This document shows, one piece after another, positions 39,653-57,616 of a stretch of DNA of 64,000 bases. The position numbers and the translations under genes were made by a program. A model generated the notes under the pieces. The model was not told the origin of the DNA. It did not search any database and worked only from the letters and a program-made list of their open reading frames with translations. The stretch's first letter is position 1, and each line of letters begins with the position of its first letter. Source of the stretch: Synechococcus sp. HK01-R (lineage in GTDB: Bacteria; Cyanobacteriota; Cyanobacteriia; PCC-6307; Cyanobiaceae); the NCBI RefSeq assembly GCF_014217855.1, contig NZ_CP059059.1, forward strand, positions 806,001 through 870,000, given 5' to 3'.

Positions 39653-41198
<1,546 letters not shown>

Positions 41199-43205
41199 TC
41201 ACAGCTTTTTGATTGCTTTAGGGGTCTGAGAGGCAAAGATCCCTGTTTTTTTGTCGACTATCCAGATGTAGGACATTCCTTCGTTGGTGTTGCTGTCAGT
41301 TATCTCCAGGCGGTTGCCACGCTTTGCAATGTGTGTGATTTGATAATCACCACGTTCAGCGGGGATTGGCTTGCCGTCCCGGATGAGTAATATCCAGGCA
41401 CTCCAGTCGCCATCGCGAGACCTGGAGCGAACGTAAAGCCGATCATTTCCATCTTTTCCAGCCTCAATCCCTGTCGCCGCATAAATGGTCTGATCGGGTT
41501 CGCTTTTGGCCCCGAGTTCTGAGGGGATGCCCTGGTGATCGTTGATTGTTCGGACCTTGGCTTCTTGTCGTGAGGCGTCGTAGTTCACGATGCAACGTTT
41601 TTGTCCTTTGCCATGGGCAGGTTTCAGCCGGTGGTGTTGTTCCGGCTTGCTCAGGGCCAGCCATGAATAGGCACCGATACCAGAGGGTTCTGTGTAAGGC
41701 CAGTCGGTCTTGGGGAAGTGACCGCTGTAGCCATTCAGCGTTGGAATTCCAGTGCGTCTCTGGGCATGCATGGCCATCACCTGGGCTCGCCATGGCGGTT
41801 GTTCGCTCCACTCGTACCAGAACAGATCACAGTTGCTGGAGCTCAAGGCAGTAGTGATGGCGTTGTTTTCCTGCCGCCAGGTCTTGAGCGAAAAGGAGGG
41901 CTGACCCTTTGGCCAGATCCCAACAAAGCTTCCCATCAGTGCCAGTAGTGCTGCGATGGGCTCCCAACGTTGAACCCCTGATCGCTGCCAATGCGTGGCG
42001 GCGAGGGCGATTGCCGGAGCCGCATACAGCACGATCACCATGGCTACGCGGCTGGAGGCGCGCACGGAGCTGGCACCTGGCAGCAGTTTGCTGATGATGA
42101 TCCAGAGGCTGAATCCCTTGAAGGAGAGGCTCAATATCACCATGGCCCCGATGGCAATTAACCAGATCCGTAGGGGGTTCGGGCTGGCTTTTCTTTGAGC
42201 GATCGCTGTCAGTAGGACAGCTGCGAACAAGATCAGCAGGCTCCAGCCTGGAAACAGTTCCTGCTCAGCGCCATAAACCCAGTTTGGATTTGTATTGGCC
42301 GCGGTCAATGGTGGCTGGAGGAGCCATTGATCACTCCCGAACAGCCAGCTCCCAATCTTGGGGAGATTATTAATGATTTCTCCAATGTCCCTTTTCCCAA
42401 AGGTCTTCAGTGTTTGCAAGTAGGGGAGGTAAATCGTTGCGTTGAGACCAATGCAGGCAAGCAGTAGTGTTGTATGAATCCCTAGCCGTTGTCCGTGCTT
42501 CAGCCTGAACCGGTGTTGATGAAAACGCTTTAAGAGGTGAATGGCGCTAGCAATTAAGACGCCATAACAGGCATAAACAAAGATGTAGATATTGAAGAAG
42601 CCATTGGCCAGAAGCCAGGAGCCCAACAGAAGCCAGTCACTGATCGTGAAATCGACTGGTGGTTCCTGGATCAATCGATGGCAGAGCCAGAGAATTGGGC
42701 CGATCAGAAAGAGGCTGAGCAGCTGGGGATGACCTAACTGTTGGGTGATAACAGGGCTGAAACTGGTGACGAGTGCCGCAATGCTGATCCAGACGGGTTG
42801 GGTCTCTGGAGCAATGCGTTTGGCGGTATGGCGGATGGCTACGAAGTTCAGCCACAGGGTCGTGGTAATCCATCCCACATAGCTTTGAAAAGGATCGCAG
42901 AATGAACGGAAGGTTCCGTAGATCACGCTGGGACCGAGTAAATGATCACTCCAGGCAAGAGTGTCTTGAATCGGCCAAAAAAAGTCTGGCGACCAAAAGT
43001 GCGCTGATTTAAAAATTTGAAAATCAATGAAATGCCTGTAGGCGTGTTCTAGGAAATACAGGTTGAGGAGCGTGTCGCCTGGGTCTGTCGGAAATTGTGC
43101 GAGGCCACTGGATAGGGTCGGCCAGAGCGTCATGGCGATTGCCAGAGCTGGAACCGCTAGCCAGTGGAACAACAGATGAGACGCGCTCTTGAATCTCAAA
43201 GGCAT
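41199..43205 (-). CDS. Multispanning membrane protein, GT-C glycosyltransferase-like
   Basis: A 668-residue protein with about ten membrane helices in the first 430 residues and a soluble, probably periplasmic C-terminal domain of about 230 residues. The first loop carries an acidic D-x2-D motif (Asp41, Asp44 in '[20 protein letters not shown]'), the pattern of lipid-linked sugar GT-C transferases. I do not recognise a named family. Base composition is clearly lower in GC than thiC or tkt. It overlaps the UXS gene by 10 bases and is the last gene of the operon. A non-enzymatic membrane protein remains possible. Confidence 0.7.
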
Positions 43206-44128
43206 TCCCTGAACCAGGCAATCGTGGGGTCCAGACCCTGTGGAAGCGAGATCTTAGGTTCCCATCCCAGCTCCTGTCTGGCGAGATCAATGATCGGCTG
43301 GCGTTGGAGTGGATCGTCTTGGGGGAGCGGTTTTGTGATCAGTTCGAGCTTAGGATTGATGCGATCGCGCACCAGTTCAGCCAGCTGGCGGATGGTGAAC
43401 TCACCCGGATTGCCGATATTGATGGGGCCTGTGTGGTTGCCGTTCATCAGGCGGATCATGCCTTCAATCAGATCATCCACATAGCAGAAGGAGCGGGTCT
43501 GGCTGCCATCGCCGTAGAGAGTGAGAGCTTGTCCTTGCAGTGCTTGCATGATGAAGTTGCTCACTACCCGTCCGTCGTCGGGCAGCATGCGCGGCCCGTA
43601 AGTATTGAAAATGCGCATGACGCGAATTTCAGTGCCATGCATGCGCTGATAATCGAAGCAAAGGGTTTCGGCGATGCGCTTGCCTTCGTCGTAGCAGCTG
43701 CGGATCCCGATCGTGTTCACGCAACCTCGATAGCTTTCGGGTTGCGGGTGCACCTCTGGATCGCCATACACCTCACTGGTGCTCGCTAAAAGTAGGCGTG
43801 CACCCACGCGCCGCGCCAGGCCGAGCATGTTGTAGGTGCCTAGAAAACTGGTTTTGGCCGTTTTGATCGGATTAAATTGATAGTGAACCGGCGAAGCTGG
43901 GCAAGCTAGATGCCAGATGCGGTCGACTTCCAGTCGGATTGGTTCCGTTACGTCATGGCGGATCAGTTCAAAGCGAGGATGGCTGATCCACTGGGAGATA
44001 TTGGTTTTGCGTCCAGTGAAATAGTTGTCGAGGCAGATCACCTCTTCCCCGGCTTGCATGAGCCGGTCGGTTAGGTGAGAGCCGAGGAAGCCCGCGCCGC
44101 CTGTGATCAGATTGCGTGTAATTCGCAT
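43196..44128 (-). CDS. UDP-glucuronate decarboxylase (UDP-xylose synthase) type SDR
   Basis: Extended SDR that decarboxylates UDP-glucuronate to UDP-xylose. The 310-residue protein has the NAD motif '[17 protein letters not shown]', '[18 protein letters not shown]', '[19 protein letters not shown]', '[16 protein letters not shown]' and the catalytic Y-x3-K in '[13 protein letters not shown]'. '[12 protein letters not shown]' and 'YFTGRK' are typical of UXS rather than of 4-epimerases. It probably supplies the sugar used by the neighbouring glycosyltransferases. It follows the GT2 gene by 7 bases. Confidence 0.9.
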
Positions 44129-44135
44129 GATGCGC

Positions 44136-44828
44136 CTAGCGTTGGGCCCAAAGATTGTATTTCAGGATGCAGTAGATCGCGCGGAATCCATCTCTCCAGC
44201 CGATTTTCTTGCCTTCATCGTAGGTGCGGCCGTAGTAGGAGATGCCCACTTCATAGATGCGAAGATTCATTTTTGAGATTTTGGCTGTCACTTCTGGCTC
44301 AAAGCCGAACCTATTTTCGCAGATGTTGATTGCTTGAATCACCTCGCGCCTGAATGCCTTGTAACAGGTCTCCATGTCTGAAAGGTTCAGATCTGTGAAG
44401 AAATTGCTCATCAGGGTGAGCACGCCATTGCCGACCCTGTGCCAGAAATACACAACCCTGTGTGGTCTGCCACTTTGAAAGCGACTGCCGAAGACAACAT
44501 CAGCTTTGCCATCCACAATCGGTTGAATGACAATTGGGAACTCCTGGGGATCGTATTCAAGATCCGCATCCTGAACGATGCAGATATCCCCGGTGGCCTT
44601 CTGGAAGCCTGTTCTTAATGCTGCTCCCTTCCCTTGGTTCTTGTCGTGGAAGACCACGCTGATTTCATGGTCTTTGATTGTTGCGAGGATATCCCGTGTT
44701 CCATCGCTGGAGCCATCATCAACGATGATAATTTCTCGATCGCTTATCGGCGCCTTTTTGACGGCTTCAATCAGTGAAATGATCGTGGCTGCTTCGTTGT
44801 AGCAGGGAATAATAATGCTGAGCTTCAT
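44136..44828 (-). CDS. GT2 glycosyltransferase (polyprenyl-phosphate sugar synthase-like)
   Basis: A 230-residue GT-A enzyme like dolichyl-phosphate mannose synthase. It has '[20 protein letters not shown]', '[12 protein letters not shown]', '[19 protein letters not shown]', the metal motif in '[11 protein letters not shown]' and '[15 protein letters not shown]'. There are no membrane helices after the catalytic domain. It starts at the stop of gtrA (TAATG), which supports a GtrB-like role loading a sugar on undecaprenyl phosphate. The sugar is not known; xylose is suggested by the neighbour. Confidence 0.9.
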
Positions 44829-45322
44829 TATTTAAATACCCAATATTTTTGTGCGCCGTACGATAGCACGGCTAGGCATGGTATTAGTGCTGCAGCTGCA
44901 ATATTTTTGCTGAAACCTAGTGTGGTGCCGATGTCAATCCCCGCAGTGTTGAGTAGCCACATGGTTGTCATCAGAGCCAGGTAGCGGAGGATTGGCTGAT
45001 GGTTGCGCAATCCTTTGGCTTGGAACACGACTTTGCCGTAAATCGTGTAGCCAAAGCCCGTGTTAATGGCTTGGCTGATCAATGTGGCCGCGAGCACACT
45101 CACGCTGTTGCTCGCTAGAAGCATTTGCAGCACAAGGTTGGTGACGAGGACATTGCAGAGTCCTGCTGCGCCGAAGCGTCGTTTCTGTCCGCGACGCTTG
45201 CCGCGGGTTGGTACCTGATCTGTTGCTTCGGCAGCATCAGTCAAAACCCCCCGGTGCCCTGAGGCAGCGGGGGGCGATGGGATTGCTTGATCAGCCTGTG
45301 AGTTCTCTGAATTCACAGACAT
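44828..45322 (-). CDS. GtrA family membrane protein
   Basis: A 164-residue protein: about 60 hydrophilic residues, then four membrane helices ('[20 protein letters not shown]', '[20 protein letters not shown]', '[19 protein letters not shown]', '[20 protein letters not shown]'). '[14 protein letters not shown]' and the terminal 'YWVFK' are GtrA signatures. GtrA proteins are thought to flip polyprenyl-phosphate sugars across the membrane. ATG 45322 lies 4 bases after tkt on the same strand; a longer frame upstream is antisense-like within tkt. Confidence 0.85.
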
Positions 45323-45326
45323 TAAG

Positions 45327-47336
<2,010 letters not shown>

Positions 47337-54988: not shown

Positions 54989-55150
54989 TCAAAAAATCAA
55001 GCGCCTCAACTCAGGGTTATAATGCTGCCCCGTTCTCAGGCTGAACAACGCTCCTGGTCTGTTGCAAGCCGTTGGGCCAGACAGAAAGTGATAGTAATTC
55101 GCCAGGCTTTTGCGATCAACGCCAGGAGGAAGTTGCAAGGGTTGGCTCAG
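54989..55150 (-). pseudogene. C-terminal fragment, probable 2OG-Fe(II) oxygenase
   Basis: An open stretch on the minus strand, ending in a TGA at 54989-54991, reads 'LQLPPGVDRKSLANYYHFLS' and 50 further residues without a start codon. 'G-x-D-R-K-S-L-A-x-Y-Y' looks like the last strand of a 2OG-Fe(II) dioxygenase. It is on the same strand as the N-terminal fragment at 56348-56681, with a ruined transposase between. Assignment from a short motif only. Confidence 0.4.
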
Positions 55151-56243
55151 GGTAGGGTTCGTAACTCAGGCGATCGAGGAATGTGAATCCCTCGCCGGTG
55201 ACAGAGATTGAGATCTTGGCTCCGAACTCAACATTGCAACGAGCTTTCCCGCGGACCATCGGTCTGATATGGGCCTGGCAGAGGCTGATGATGCGATCTG
55301 GGATGCTTCTGCTGTCTGCGTGATGGAGAATGGTCTGATGGCGGACCAGCTCGCTGATTACCAGCAACTTCTGATAGATATGCCCTCGGGCGGTCAGAAG
55401 GCAGCCACCACAAGCGACCAGGGCGTCGATGCTCGAGAGATTTCGCTTGAGGTGGCCAAGCTGCTACTTGATGGCCTTGCGGATCTAGTTGATACGGTTT
55501 TTTTTCTTCTGCTGCTTCGAAGAAGCCTTCGGCTAGGGCTACAGCAAAAAACTGCTGCCTGGCCTGTTTGCGGTGGGTACGAGGCTTATGGCCAAAGCTT
55601 TGTCTAACCTGAGGAGCATCGCATCAATCAGGATCTCAGTCACCTCCCTCGCTTCATTGAGCAGTGATAGATCTGTTGGATGAAAGATATCTACAGGTGC
55701 ACAGGTGGCAGCGATCAAAAGTGAACCCTGATTCGGCTGCTTCTGCGAGGATGGTTTTGACCGGACTGCAGGATTGGTCAATCCACCACCACTGCCATTG
55801 TCATCGCCTTGGCCCTGGGAATCGGATGAGCGAATCACCTTGAGGCCATGGCGCACAATCAGTTCGTTGCAGTCGTTGACTAGCGATTACGGTAGGCGCT
55901 TCCGGAAATAGACCATCATCAATGGATCAAACGGTGCCGAATACTGGAATGCTTCCAGGCCGATGAAGAGCTGGAGATATGGACTCTCCTTGATCTGCTC
56001 AACCAGCTCTTCATCCGTGAGCCCGAGGCATGCCTTGATGATCAAGGCACCCAGTGCCATGCGAAAGGGTTTTGCCGGTGCTGCAAAGCCCTTGCAGAAT
56101 TGCGCGGCATAGTCGTCCTCCAGCTCATCCCATGGGATCAGCTCAGCCAGCTTGATCGAGCGATTGTCACCAGAGAGTTTGCCGCCGAAAGGCAGGAAGT
56201 GGTCCTCAAACGAGAGCTGATGACGATGCTCACGCCTGTACAT
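55140..56243 (-). pseudogene. Decayed transposase (IS5/IS1182-like, InsH N-terminal type)
   Basis: Starts at ATG 56243 with 'RREHRHQLSFEDHFLPFGGK', 'ALGALIIKACLGLTDEELVE' and 'YSAPFDPLMMVYFRKRL', typical of DUF772 transposases. An in-frame TAA follows (near 55888), then the frame resumes ('NDCNELIVRHGLKVI' to 'NEAREVTEILIDAML'), shifts near 55616, shifts again in a poly-A run, carries two more TAG codons, and picks up 'LLVISELVRHQTILHHADSR' and 'FGAKISISVTGEGFTFLDRL'. It ends at 'SYEPY'; the C-terminal DDE part is missing. Terminal inverted repeats were not found. Confidence 0.88.
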
Positions 56244-56347
56244 GTGGAAAACTCCGGACCACTTTTGGGCTCAAATCGGCCCGTTTGCGCACATTTTACC
56301 GTCAAAAAGAGCTTAAAGTCATTGCGCTGCAGTGGGTCTGGCTTTAT

Positions 56348-56681
56348 TCAGGAAGCCCCATGTAACCCTGGATCGGCGATCAGTTTGCGGCCGACGCAAC
56401 GGGAGAGCGTCTCAGCAAAACCATCGCTGCAGAGCCCAAGAAGCAGCTCTCGGGTGGACGGTCCAAAGCATTCCCAGCGATGCAGAGTTTTCTTGTGCTC
56501 GAGTGGGTTGTCGTAACTGACCCACTCGCAGGCGTCGTCACTGGGGAATTCGGCTTCCACGCTCCTGGCCAGTGAATCGGGCAACACCTGATCAATCAAG
56601 GTGCGGGGAAAGGGTTGAGTTGAGCGTGAGGGAAGCAGTGGAAAGCCTCCCTGAGGCGATCCTCGGGAATGGGGGGGGCAT
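56348..56681 (-). pseudogene. N-terminal fragment, probable 2OG-Fe(II) oxygenase
   Basis: From ATG 56681 the pieces are 'IPEDRLREAFHCFPHAQLN', 'RTLIDQVLPDSLARSVEAEF' and 'LEHKKTLHRWECFGPSTREL', ending 'IADPGLHGAS' at a TGA. Two frameshifts are needed, one in a C8 run (56671-56678) and one in a C4 run (56605-56608). The order resembles cyanobacterial 2OG-Fe(II) oxygenases, in which the iron-binding His-x-Asp segment would come next but is missing here. Probably truncated by the transposon insertion. Confidence 0.45.
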
Positions 56682-56713
56682 GTTGAAGTGATATCTCGAT
56701 GATGTTGTCCCGG

Positions 56714-57616
56714 TTATGATGTAGTTGGCTTCATGTCCGGAGTGCTTTGACGGCGGGCGTTACGGGCGAGGGTGATGAATATTTGCGGCCACCAGGTCAG
56801 GCGTTGGTGCCAGGGCAGCTGGTAACGCGAGCAGAAGCAGTGCCACTGGCATTGTTTGGCCTGCCAGCGCTGCCAGGCCAGTCGGATCGATGCTCTGCGA
56901 CGCCCGCGGCTATCGCTGCTGTTGTTGCAATGGCGGCGATGAGCCAGCAGCTGGTCTGGGCAGGCAAGCAGTTCACCGCTGTGCCGCGCCACCAGGGCCA
57001 GCCAACTGTCGTGAAACACCGCTGCCGCCGGAATCGGCAGCGCCCGTTGCAGCAGTGCCCGATTCACCAACACTGTGCAGCCGGTGACCTGGTTGTGCTG
57101 AGCCAGGCTCACCAGTCCGGGCGGCGTCCCCTGGCAGCGGTGCGATTGCCACAAGCTGCCGGCCAGGCGATGACCGTTGGCATCGATGAGCTGGGCATCG
57201 GAGTGCAGCAGCAAGGGCGTGCCTGAGCCGTGGCGTGTCTCGGCGTCTTGCAGCAGGCGCAGGCCGGTGGCGAGTCGCTCGGGGAACCAGAGGTCGTCTT
57301 GATCGCAGAGGGCCACATAGGGGGCACGGCTGGCCAGGAGCAGCTGATTGAAGGCGGCGGTGGGGCCGAGCCGCTGGGGCTGATCGCACACTGGGCTGAT
57401 CCGTTCCAGCCAACCAGGACACCGGCATTGCCAGCGCTGCAGGATCGCTGGCGTGTCATCGCAGGAGCTGTCGTCGCACACCAACACCCGGTCGGGGCGT
57501 CGATGCTGCCTCCAGAGACTCTCCAGCTGTGCATCGAGAAATGCGGCTCCGTTGCAGGTGGCCAGCACCACCTCCAGCGTCAGCGTCTCCGGGATCACCA
57601 CCACTGCAGGCCCCAT
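56714..57616 (-). CDS. GT2 glycosyltransferase
   Basis: A 300-residue GT-A glycosyltransferase: 'LEVVLATCNGAAFLDAQLES', 'VLVCDDSSCDDTPAILQRW', 'VALCDQDDLWFPERLA' (metal Asp pair) and 'FHDSWLALVARHSGELL'. The form is like rhamnosyl- or galactosyl-transferases of surface glycans. Start is ATG 57616 or a GTG at 57604-57598; either overlaps the preceding GT2 gene. It is the last gene of the secretion operon. The 114 bases beyond its stop, before the oxygenase fragment, show nothing. Confidence 0.88.
   Translation of the reverse strand: MGPAVVVIPETLTLEVVLATCNGAAFLDAQLESLWRQHRRPDRVLVCDDSSCDDTPAILQRWQCRCPGWLERISPVCDQPQRLGPTAAFNQLLLASRAPYVALCDQDDLWFPERLATGLRLLQDAETRHGSGTPLLLHSDAQLIDANGHRLAGSLWQSHRCQGTPPGLVSLAQHNQVTGCTVLVNRALLQRALPIPAAAVFHDSWLALVARHSGELLACPDQLLAHRRHCNNSSDSRGRRRASIRLAWQRWQAKQCQWHCFCSRYQLPWHQRLTWWPQIFITLARNARRQSTPDMKPTTS

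Follow-up and report, generated by a model that had tools for sequence, protein, structure and literature searches.

What do four tightly packed genes between tkt and thiC in Synechococcus sp. HK01-R do, and which sugar do they handle? The genes lie in a stretch of 64,000 nucleotides (positions 806,001 to 870,000 of contig NZ_CP059059.1, hereafter the window) of a host genome that is a single contig of 2.48 Mb and whose genus also contains Synechococcus WH7803. They occupy 45322-41199 on the minus strand, between tkt (45327-47336, minus strand) and thiC (39738-41198, plus strand), and encode, in order, a GtrA-like protein (44828-45322), a family 2 glycosyltransferase (GT2, 44136-44828, 230 aa), a short-chain dehydrogenase/reductase (SDR, 43196-44128) resembling UDP-glucuronate decarboxylase, that is, UDP-xylose synthase (UXS), and a 668-residue membrane protein (41199-43205). 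Our answer, in which we place slightly more trust than distrust, is that they form a three-component lipid-linked sugar transfer system, in which a sugar taken from UDP-xylose is placed on polyprenyl phosphate, flipped, and transferred to a surface acceptor by a GT-C glycosyltransferase of an unnamed family. The arrangement resembles the Gtr and Arn systems, and its sugar is probably xylose, a call that we put at about even.

In the proposed pathway, a Ugd encoded elsewhere in the genome, where there are two Ugd-type (PF03721) genes, would oxidise cytoplasmic UDP-glucose to UDP-glucuronate, and the SDR would decarboxylate this to UDP-xylose. The small GT2 would move the pentose onto polyprenyl phosphate, the GtrA-like protein would aid the GT2 at the membrane, flip the lipid-sugar to the periplasmic face, or both, and the 668-residue enzyme would use acidic residues of its first loop, D41 and D44, to pass the sugar to a surface acceptor, most likely the lipopolysaccharide (LPS) O-chain or another cell-surface glycan. 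We infer the sugar and its ring form, and the flipping step and the acceptor are likewise predictions.

The four genes are consecutive and tightly coupled, as the sequence-only reading had it: the GtrA and GT2 genes share 1 base, GT2 and SDR are separated by 7 bases, and the SDR and large-protein genes overlap by 10 bases. Pfam gives GtrA_DPMS_TM, Glycos_transf_2 and Epimerase/GDP_Man_Dehyd for the first three proteins and nothing for the fourth. The SDR, which had been called a UDP-xylose synthase type, is a UXS relative and the predicted maker of UDP-xylose from UDP-glucuronate. It scores 426-428 bits against four UXS1 structures over residues 5-308 (E 1.4e-127 for 2b69, which is human UXS1 according to an excerpt of PMC13404148), compared with 136 bits for the best SDR structure that is not UXS and about 88-91 bits for ArnA. 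Its GGAGFLG at residues 10-16 (GGAGFVG in the human enzyme), T117-S118-E119 and Y146/K150 align with UXS1, and these motif residues are invariant in 9 aligned SDRs from the tkt-thiC site. We take T-S-E and Y-x3-K to be the active-site residues of UXS and GGAGFxG to be its Rossmann motif. An identity as an epimerase or a dTDP-sugar enzyme, one of two outcomes that the sequence-only reading had said would refute it, is ruled out by 428 bits to UXS1 against at most 136 bits to other SDRs, and the NCBIfam dTDP-glucose dehydratase model gives 116.5 bits where its cut-off is 365.1.

A neighbourhood search, which the sequence-only reading had proposed as a check, shows that GT2, GtrA/SMR and UXS do recur beside relatives of the large protein. 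A pattern-based scan of one genome per species (84,980 species) found relatives at 64 loci or more, a lower bound, in Cyanobacteria, Proteobacteria, Bacteroidota, Chloroflexi and others. For the neighbourhood profiles 68 loci were entered, and 65 were left after dropping three (L093, L099, L102) with no open reading frame (ORF) over the GT-C threshold; the count omits duplicates (L046, L054, L107), the window itself and L015-L017, of which L015 is the same place as L047, and the places of L016/L054 and L017 go uncounted. Within 5 kb of the GT-C gene we found GT2 at 29 of the 65 loci, GtrA at 13, an SMR-type protein at 7 (one or the other at 20), UXS at 11 and Ugd at 4, and among the 45 loci with full 5-kb flanks GT2 at 23, GtrA or SMR at 16 and UXS at 7; the profiles for GtrA, SMR and Ugd drew on members of some counted loci, which match by construction. 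These rows stand for fewer lineages, because L049 and L050 come from one genome and L089 and L091 are identical GT2 branches; L050 (Synechococcus GFB01) is one of the 11 UXS rows.

Five proteobacterial clusters with UXS by the GT-C gene, two of them also with Ugd, are the best evidence that the donor is UDP-xylose. The gene order is UXS-GT2-GtrA-membrane protein-GT-C-Ugd in Pseudomonas alcaligenes, where the GT2 is of a different subtype, GT-C-GT2-GtrA-Ugd-UXS in Polynucleobacter, UXS...GtrA...GT-C in Seohaeicola and Chromatiaceae, and UXS-GT2-GT-C in a gammaproteobacterium (G729). P. alcaligenes and Seohaeicola each have a single UXS (E<=1e-60), the one in the GT-C cluster. A tree of the GT2 proteins, several forks of which are weak, scatters those linked to UXS over at least three places (picocyanobacteria, a group of Polynucleobacter and G729, and G785). 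The last of these has UXS, GT2 and another membrane protein in a row next to a Ugd-like gene (so labelled by its N-terminal sequence), and no large-protein GT-C at E<=1e-10. Of 369 gammaproteobacterial genomes in one sample, 2 matched the GT-C profile, 12 the GT2 (E<=1e-60) and 72 UXS, and in both GT-C genomes UXS is at most 2 kb away on the same strand. The sample was centred on P. alcaligenes, known beforehand, so that G729 is the only unprompted case, and these linkage counts come without a matched control from other polysaccharide genes.

The history of the tkt-thiC site also bears on the sugar. We surveyed 31 genomes of the genus and found thiC in 29, the window genome included. The four-gene cassette is present in 4 (G000, G002, G013, G022); in 7 the site has just the SDR, 7 more have nothing recognisable as a gene, and 6 have other contents. 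Two more (G015, G016) have GtrA and GT2 with a membrane protein outside the large-protein GT-C family and no SDR; a single-sequence fold model of this alternative protein in G015 (L040) reached a pLDDT of 42.9, too poor for a fold reading. The remaining three (G008, G017, G025) have UbiA, FAD oxidase, SDR reductase, GtrA, HAD-type and UXS genes, assigned by Pfam in G008 and by gene lengths and N-termini in the other two. In G008, NCBIfam identifies the FAD oxidase as DprE1 and the UbiA protein as decaprenyl-phosphate phosphoribosyltransferase, both over cut-off, and the reductase scores 106.5 bits where the DprE2 cut-off is 250. Outside the genus, Synechococcus GFB01 has the four genes at the same site with the large gene split over two ORFs, and Prochlorococcus MIT 0701 (G170) has them directly after tkt, with thiC not within the 20 kb examined. 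L050, a further copy in GFB01 in which UXS has a Ugd-like neighbour and the GT-C gene is spread across several ORFs, is possibly an artefact of assembly. G300 has the core three genes without the SDR between tkt and thiC, and Prochlorococcus AG-409-B05 has the same three at another genomic place.

The cassette is beyond a chance association, since the same four genes recur in the same order in three other genomes of the genus, in GFB01 and in MIT 0701. Synechococcus WH7803 is one strain with all four. Between the window and G002, G013, G022 and G170, the GT2 is 85-90% identical, the SDR 86-95%, GtrA 57-62% and the GT-C protein 47-54%. The 18 UXS rows that the site contributes to the SDR tree (the genus plus MIT 0701) form one group (support 97/92), with the GFB01 cassette rows outside it. 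Within the group the SDRs from cassettes, those of MIT 0701 included, cluster at 92/81, under the tree's own 95/80 mark, and are sister to 12 site SDRs without a cassette (95/92). The sequence-only reading had suggested transfer as a unit. The four genes do recur together, and the suggestion is borne out only in part, given SDR alone, GtrA and GT2 without SDR, and the core three without SDR (G300) at the same site. From these varied contents and the SDR tree, the cassette is a mosaic of modules and not a strict unit. Its lower GC content, also pointed out in that reading, is clear: 0.531 in 41199-45322, where 4.1-kb stretches of the window average 0.637 (sd 0.029), with values as low or lower at 3 of 599 sliding positions.

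Two side observations belong to these loci. In Prochlorococcus MIT 0701 there is a broken second UXS copy (L015:14698-15087) downstream of the cassette, beyond a GH99/WbsX-type gene. In three genomes of the genus (L029:3094-10344, L032:5729-12977 and L035:3026-10291) the UXS of the tkt-thiC site has as neighbours a UbiA-type phosphoribosyltransferase, DprE1 (NCBIfam labels for L029 only), a reductase resembling DprE2, a GtrA protein and a fusion of HAD and LPG-synthase-TM parts, possibly a cyanobacterial lipid-linked ribose/arabinose system.

A number of results weigh against xylose as the lipid-linked sugar. UXS is near-universal in Cyanobacteria (107 of 116 sampled genomes) and stands alone at the tkt-thiC site in 7 of 29 genomes, so its adjacency in the cassette could be coincidence. 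There is no UXS within 5 kb of the GT-C gene in 54 of the 65 loci, nor in G300, AG-409-B05 or any of the 12 cyanobacterial loci outside the picocyanobacteria that have GT2 beside GT-C. Among the gammaproteobacteria, UXS is missing at E<=1e-110 from 7 of the 12 genomes with the GT2 (their completeness was not given). Of the 5 genomes with both genes, only 3 have them within 5 kb of each other: adjacent and on the same strand in G729 and G785, and 3.8 kb apart on opposite strands in G930. Since some genomes have a GT2 orthologue but no UXS, UDP-xylose is not always the donor for the GT2 family, and the linkage supports UDP-xylose for the proteobacterial clusters concerned and not for the GT2 family as a whole. 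Genome-level co-occurrence of UXS and the cassette in cyanobacteria is uninformative as evidence, with UXS in 12 of 13 genomes that have the GT-C gene compared with the 107 of 116 above. As for the product, the excerpted text of a review (PMC4515613) reports xylose in several cyanobacterial LPS, and for marine Synechococcus it names glucose, glucosamine, galacturonic acid and rhamnose, with no xylose named for strains WH8102 and CC9311, which may or may not carry the cassette.

Several of these points would also be explained if the same three-component machine carried a hexose, for example as polyprenyl-phosphate-glucose, with UXS an older housekeeping resident of the site and GtrA-GT2 and GT-C inserted on either side. 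We consider this doubtful. In its favour, besides the ubiquity of UXS and the GT2 orthologues in genomes without it, are the finding of UXS by itself at the site in 7 of 29 genomes and of the GtrA-GT2 pair lacking UXS in 2 of 29, and the single tree group of site UXS rows, with cassette and most non-cassette members as sisters and the GFB01 rows outside. A hexose fits poorly with the UXS linkage that recurs in proteobacteria with differing gene orders and, in at least one case, a different GT2 subtype, and with Ugd joining UXS in P. alcaligenes and Polynucleobacter. The lipid-linked xylose or other pentose that was first suggested from the letters alone survives in part: UXS, with or without Ugd, does accompany large-protein relatives in proteobacterial clusters; the sugar is unproven, and GT2 orthologues exist where UXS does not. 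More broadly, and with somewhat less than even confidence, we propose that an unnamed GT-C family acts with GT2 and GtrA/SMR proteins on polyprenyl-phosphate-xylose made from UDP-xylose, a route distinct from that of phosphoribosyl pyrophosphate (PRPP) and pentofuranose, and that the picocyanobacterial tkt-thiC site is an exchange point for lipid-linked sugar modules that alter the cell surface.

Returning to xylose and the system that would carry it, the second component is the GT2 (PF00535, E 1.2e-38), a candidate polyprenyl-phosphate sugar synthase. It had been described as GtrB-like, which in the strict sense it is not. Its best match in the PDB is dolichol monophosphate mannose synthase (DPMS; 5mlz, E 1.6e-20), covering residues 23-249 of 374, and the second is ArnC (E 4e-18); sll0501, which we take to be the GtrB-type structure in the PDB, gives only E 1.2e-8, below dolichol-phosphate-mannose synthase, ArnC and AglJ. 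The protein is DPM1/ArnC-like: it has no counterpart of the C-terminal membrane region of DPMS, its C-terminal part has no hydrophobic stretch by eye, and it has no membrane-helix anchor. None of the 25 NCBIfam families among the matches listed reaches its cut-off, so the donor cannot be named from the family; PpgS gives 77 bits, far under its cut-off of 370.

The GtrA-like protein, a putative flippase or synthase membrane subunit, is a GtrA protein as claimed: it matches PF04138 (GtrA_DPMS_TM) with 42.8 bits (E 7.2e-11), over the gathering cut-off of 26.1 bits, and is the sole match to that family at E<=0.001 in the whole host genome. Its true start is probably later than the annotated one at 45322: a terminator-like hairpin after tkt (45274-45247, minus strand, followed by T's at 45246-45243) sits between the annotated start and the Pfam domain. 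The likeliest start is the TTG at 45244, which gives 138 aa. A hairpin with a T-run was found at 25 of 31 tkt 3' flanks under a lenient rule without a shuffled control, 2 of the 25 (L013, L035) being unconvincing, and a consensus scan of 41000-45600 did not list the hairpin on the tkt side. Since the hairpin separates the cassette from tkt, the two are probably not simply co-transcribed. A scan for sigma-70 promoters was uninformative, with 2 sites where 2.9 were expected.

DPM2/DPM3-type proteins are membrane subunits for DPM1, and GtrA could likewise be a membrane subunit of the GT2, with some other protein as the flippase. The family is named for the GtrA/DPMS transmembrane domain, and the GT2 aligns only to the part of DPMS given above. 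Of the 12 cyanobacterial loci outside the picocyanobacteria with GT2 beside GT-C, 10 have a small EamA/SMR-type protein and none has GtrA, a replacement expected for interchangeable flippases. Such substitution in Nostocales-type loci points to transport over anchoring, and we regard a purely subunit role as unlikely, about as much so as a hexose.

The final step would fall to the large protein, which is, on the evidence of its model, a GT-C-fold glycosyltransferase of an unnamed family, with polyprenyl-phosphate-sugar predicted as its substrate. That no recognised family name would fit had been suspected, and indeed it matches nothing in Pfam or NCBIfam at E<=1. A sequence-only search of the PDB found no match with the window protein, and with a 59-row profile a single one, ferritin, at E 0.9. 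An AlphaFold (AF2) model built on a 59-sequence alignment has a pLDDT of 90.2 and a pTM of 0.85. All seven Foldseek matches in the PDB at E<=0.001 are GT-C enzymes or STT3-containing complexes (PglB, AglB, AftD, STT3), in line with the comparison to GT-C folds that had been suggested. VIA-align gives Z 19.4 for yeast STT3 over 434 residues at 5.1 A, and 17.4 for PMT, 16.9 for AftD, 15.4 for AftA and 15.1 for ArnT. The D-x2-D previously seen in the first loop is D41/D44, just after the first helix (2-26); in aligned relatives D44 is kept in 59 of 59 and D41 in 55 of 59, while E53, the acidic residue that follows them, is present in all 59. From about residue 537 there is a beta-rich C-terminal extension, within which residues 557-578 are of low confidence. 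Pfam matches among the 59 relatives (E<=0.01) are DUF7910 in 5 (best 4.4e-15), FRG1-like in 5, Fascin in 4 and three further families once each; we read the DUF7910, FRG1 and Fascin matches, for which the scan gives no positions, as appended beta domains.

It is highly improbable that the large protein transports lipids or glycolipids, or is some other polytopic protein without transferase activity: the leading Foldseek and VIA-align matches are GT-C enzymes, transporter folds appear only at E>0.06 with low probability, and the first-loop acids are conserved, although a non-transferase name, the NCBIfam 'trehalose lipid delivery protein' MmpA, weakly matches 7 of the 59 relatives (E<=0.01, best 3.2e-7), and the only named glycosyltransferase family found is a weak match to WsfD hexose transferase in one of the 59 (E 0.0039). 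The other NCBIfam matches at that threshold are, WsfD included, four families in one relative each. On fold we reject a transporter identity, the other refuting outcome that the sequence-only reading had named, with the MmpA matches remaining.

Two further membrane proteins recur at GT-C loci. A second polytopic protein of 422-645 aa is found in proteobacteria and Bacteroidota (BLAST E 1e-6 to 5e-18), at L014:7395-8663 and L115:123-1463, both with an S-D-G-x-G-Y motif, and also at L072, L073, L083, L094, L095 and L108; it has no Pfam name in L014, the sole member scanned, and may be a partner transferase. A conserved membrane protein of about 200 residues, 63-66% identical, precedes the GT-C gene in proteobacterial clusters (L071:7316-7912, L067:2525-3151, L086:7154-7765, L064:6374-7207) and has no Pfam or NCBIfam match in L071, the member scanned. 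Elsewhere in the window, 55001-57000 is a second low-GC stretch (0.534 and 0.581) with few long ORFs, and downstream of it, up to 59.5 kb, are what we take, from sequence, to be GT2-like glycosyltransferase genes and an HlyD-like gene.

If the proposal is true, the cassette defines genes with which the making of a lipid-linked xylose donor from UDP-xylose can be put to the test, together with a GT-C family that spans several phyla and has no name in the Pfam and NCBIfam scans made. Marine Synechococcus would then also have a small, variable locus at which genomes differ in their surface-sugar machinery, and these differences could be tied to how susceptible culturable strains such as WH7803 are to phages and grazers. 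The excerpt of Dufresne 2008 (PMC2441476) makes no mention of thiC or transketolase. We found no report of a lipid-linked xylose in the open-licence PMC literature, a weak negative because the same phrase search also missed lipid-linked xylofuranose (undP-Xylf), whose formation from PRPP has already been proposed (PMC11127046, in the part available).

The cassette can be compared with four known systems. Polyprenyl-phospho-GalNAc synthase, PpgS, works with a small partner and a GT-C protein. The cassette likewise has a short GT2 (the 77-bit PpgS match), a small membrane partner and a GT-C, but the score is far under the cut-off and a different sugar is expected. In the Arn (L-Ara4N) pathway the corresponding roles belong to ArnA, ArnC, ArnE/F and ArnT. 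Shared with it are an SDR of the UDP-glucuronate decarboxylase type, a GT2 acting on polyprenyl phosphate, a small flippase and a GT-C, and the resemblance extends to ArnC as the second PDB match of the GT2 and ArnT among the fold matches of the large protein. In contrast to Arn, the SDR is UXS (428 bits) and not ArnA (about 88-91 bits), and the four cassette genes, to which this search was confined, include no aminotransferase, formyltransferase or deformylase.

The Gtr systems of O-antigen modification in Shigella and Salmonella consist of gtrA, gtrB and a serotype-specific gtr gene and handle hexoses (background found partly in an excerpt of PMC11127046). Like them, the cassette brings a small GtrA-family protein together with a GT2 synthase and a large membrane transferase of GT-C type, and its transferase is the most variable of the four proteins (47-54% identity). 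Unlike them, its GT2 is DPM1/ArnC-like with no membrane region, so there is no anchored GtrB, it includes a UXS-type SDR, and its GT-C protein has no Pfam or NCBIfam match. In the pentofuranose systems of Citrobacter youngae O1/O2, as given in the available part of Kelly et al. 2024 (PMC11127046), a polyprenyl phosphoribose synthase, a MATE flippase and GT136 are involved. Common to both would be a lipid-linked pentose, proposed here, and a GT-C transferase that acts outside the cytoplasm and is extended at its C-terminus, but there is no UbiA-type synthase or MATE gene among the four cassette proteins, and the proposed donor route runs from UDP-glucuronate to UDP-xylose instead of from PRPP. 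G008 has a set of the decaprenylphosphoryl-ribose type between tkt and thiC, as do G017 and G025 going by their gene lengths and N-termini. Although it fails defining features of each, the cassette would work like the Gtr, GT136 and Arn systems.

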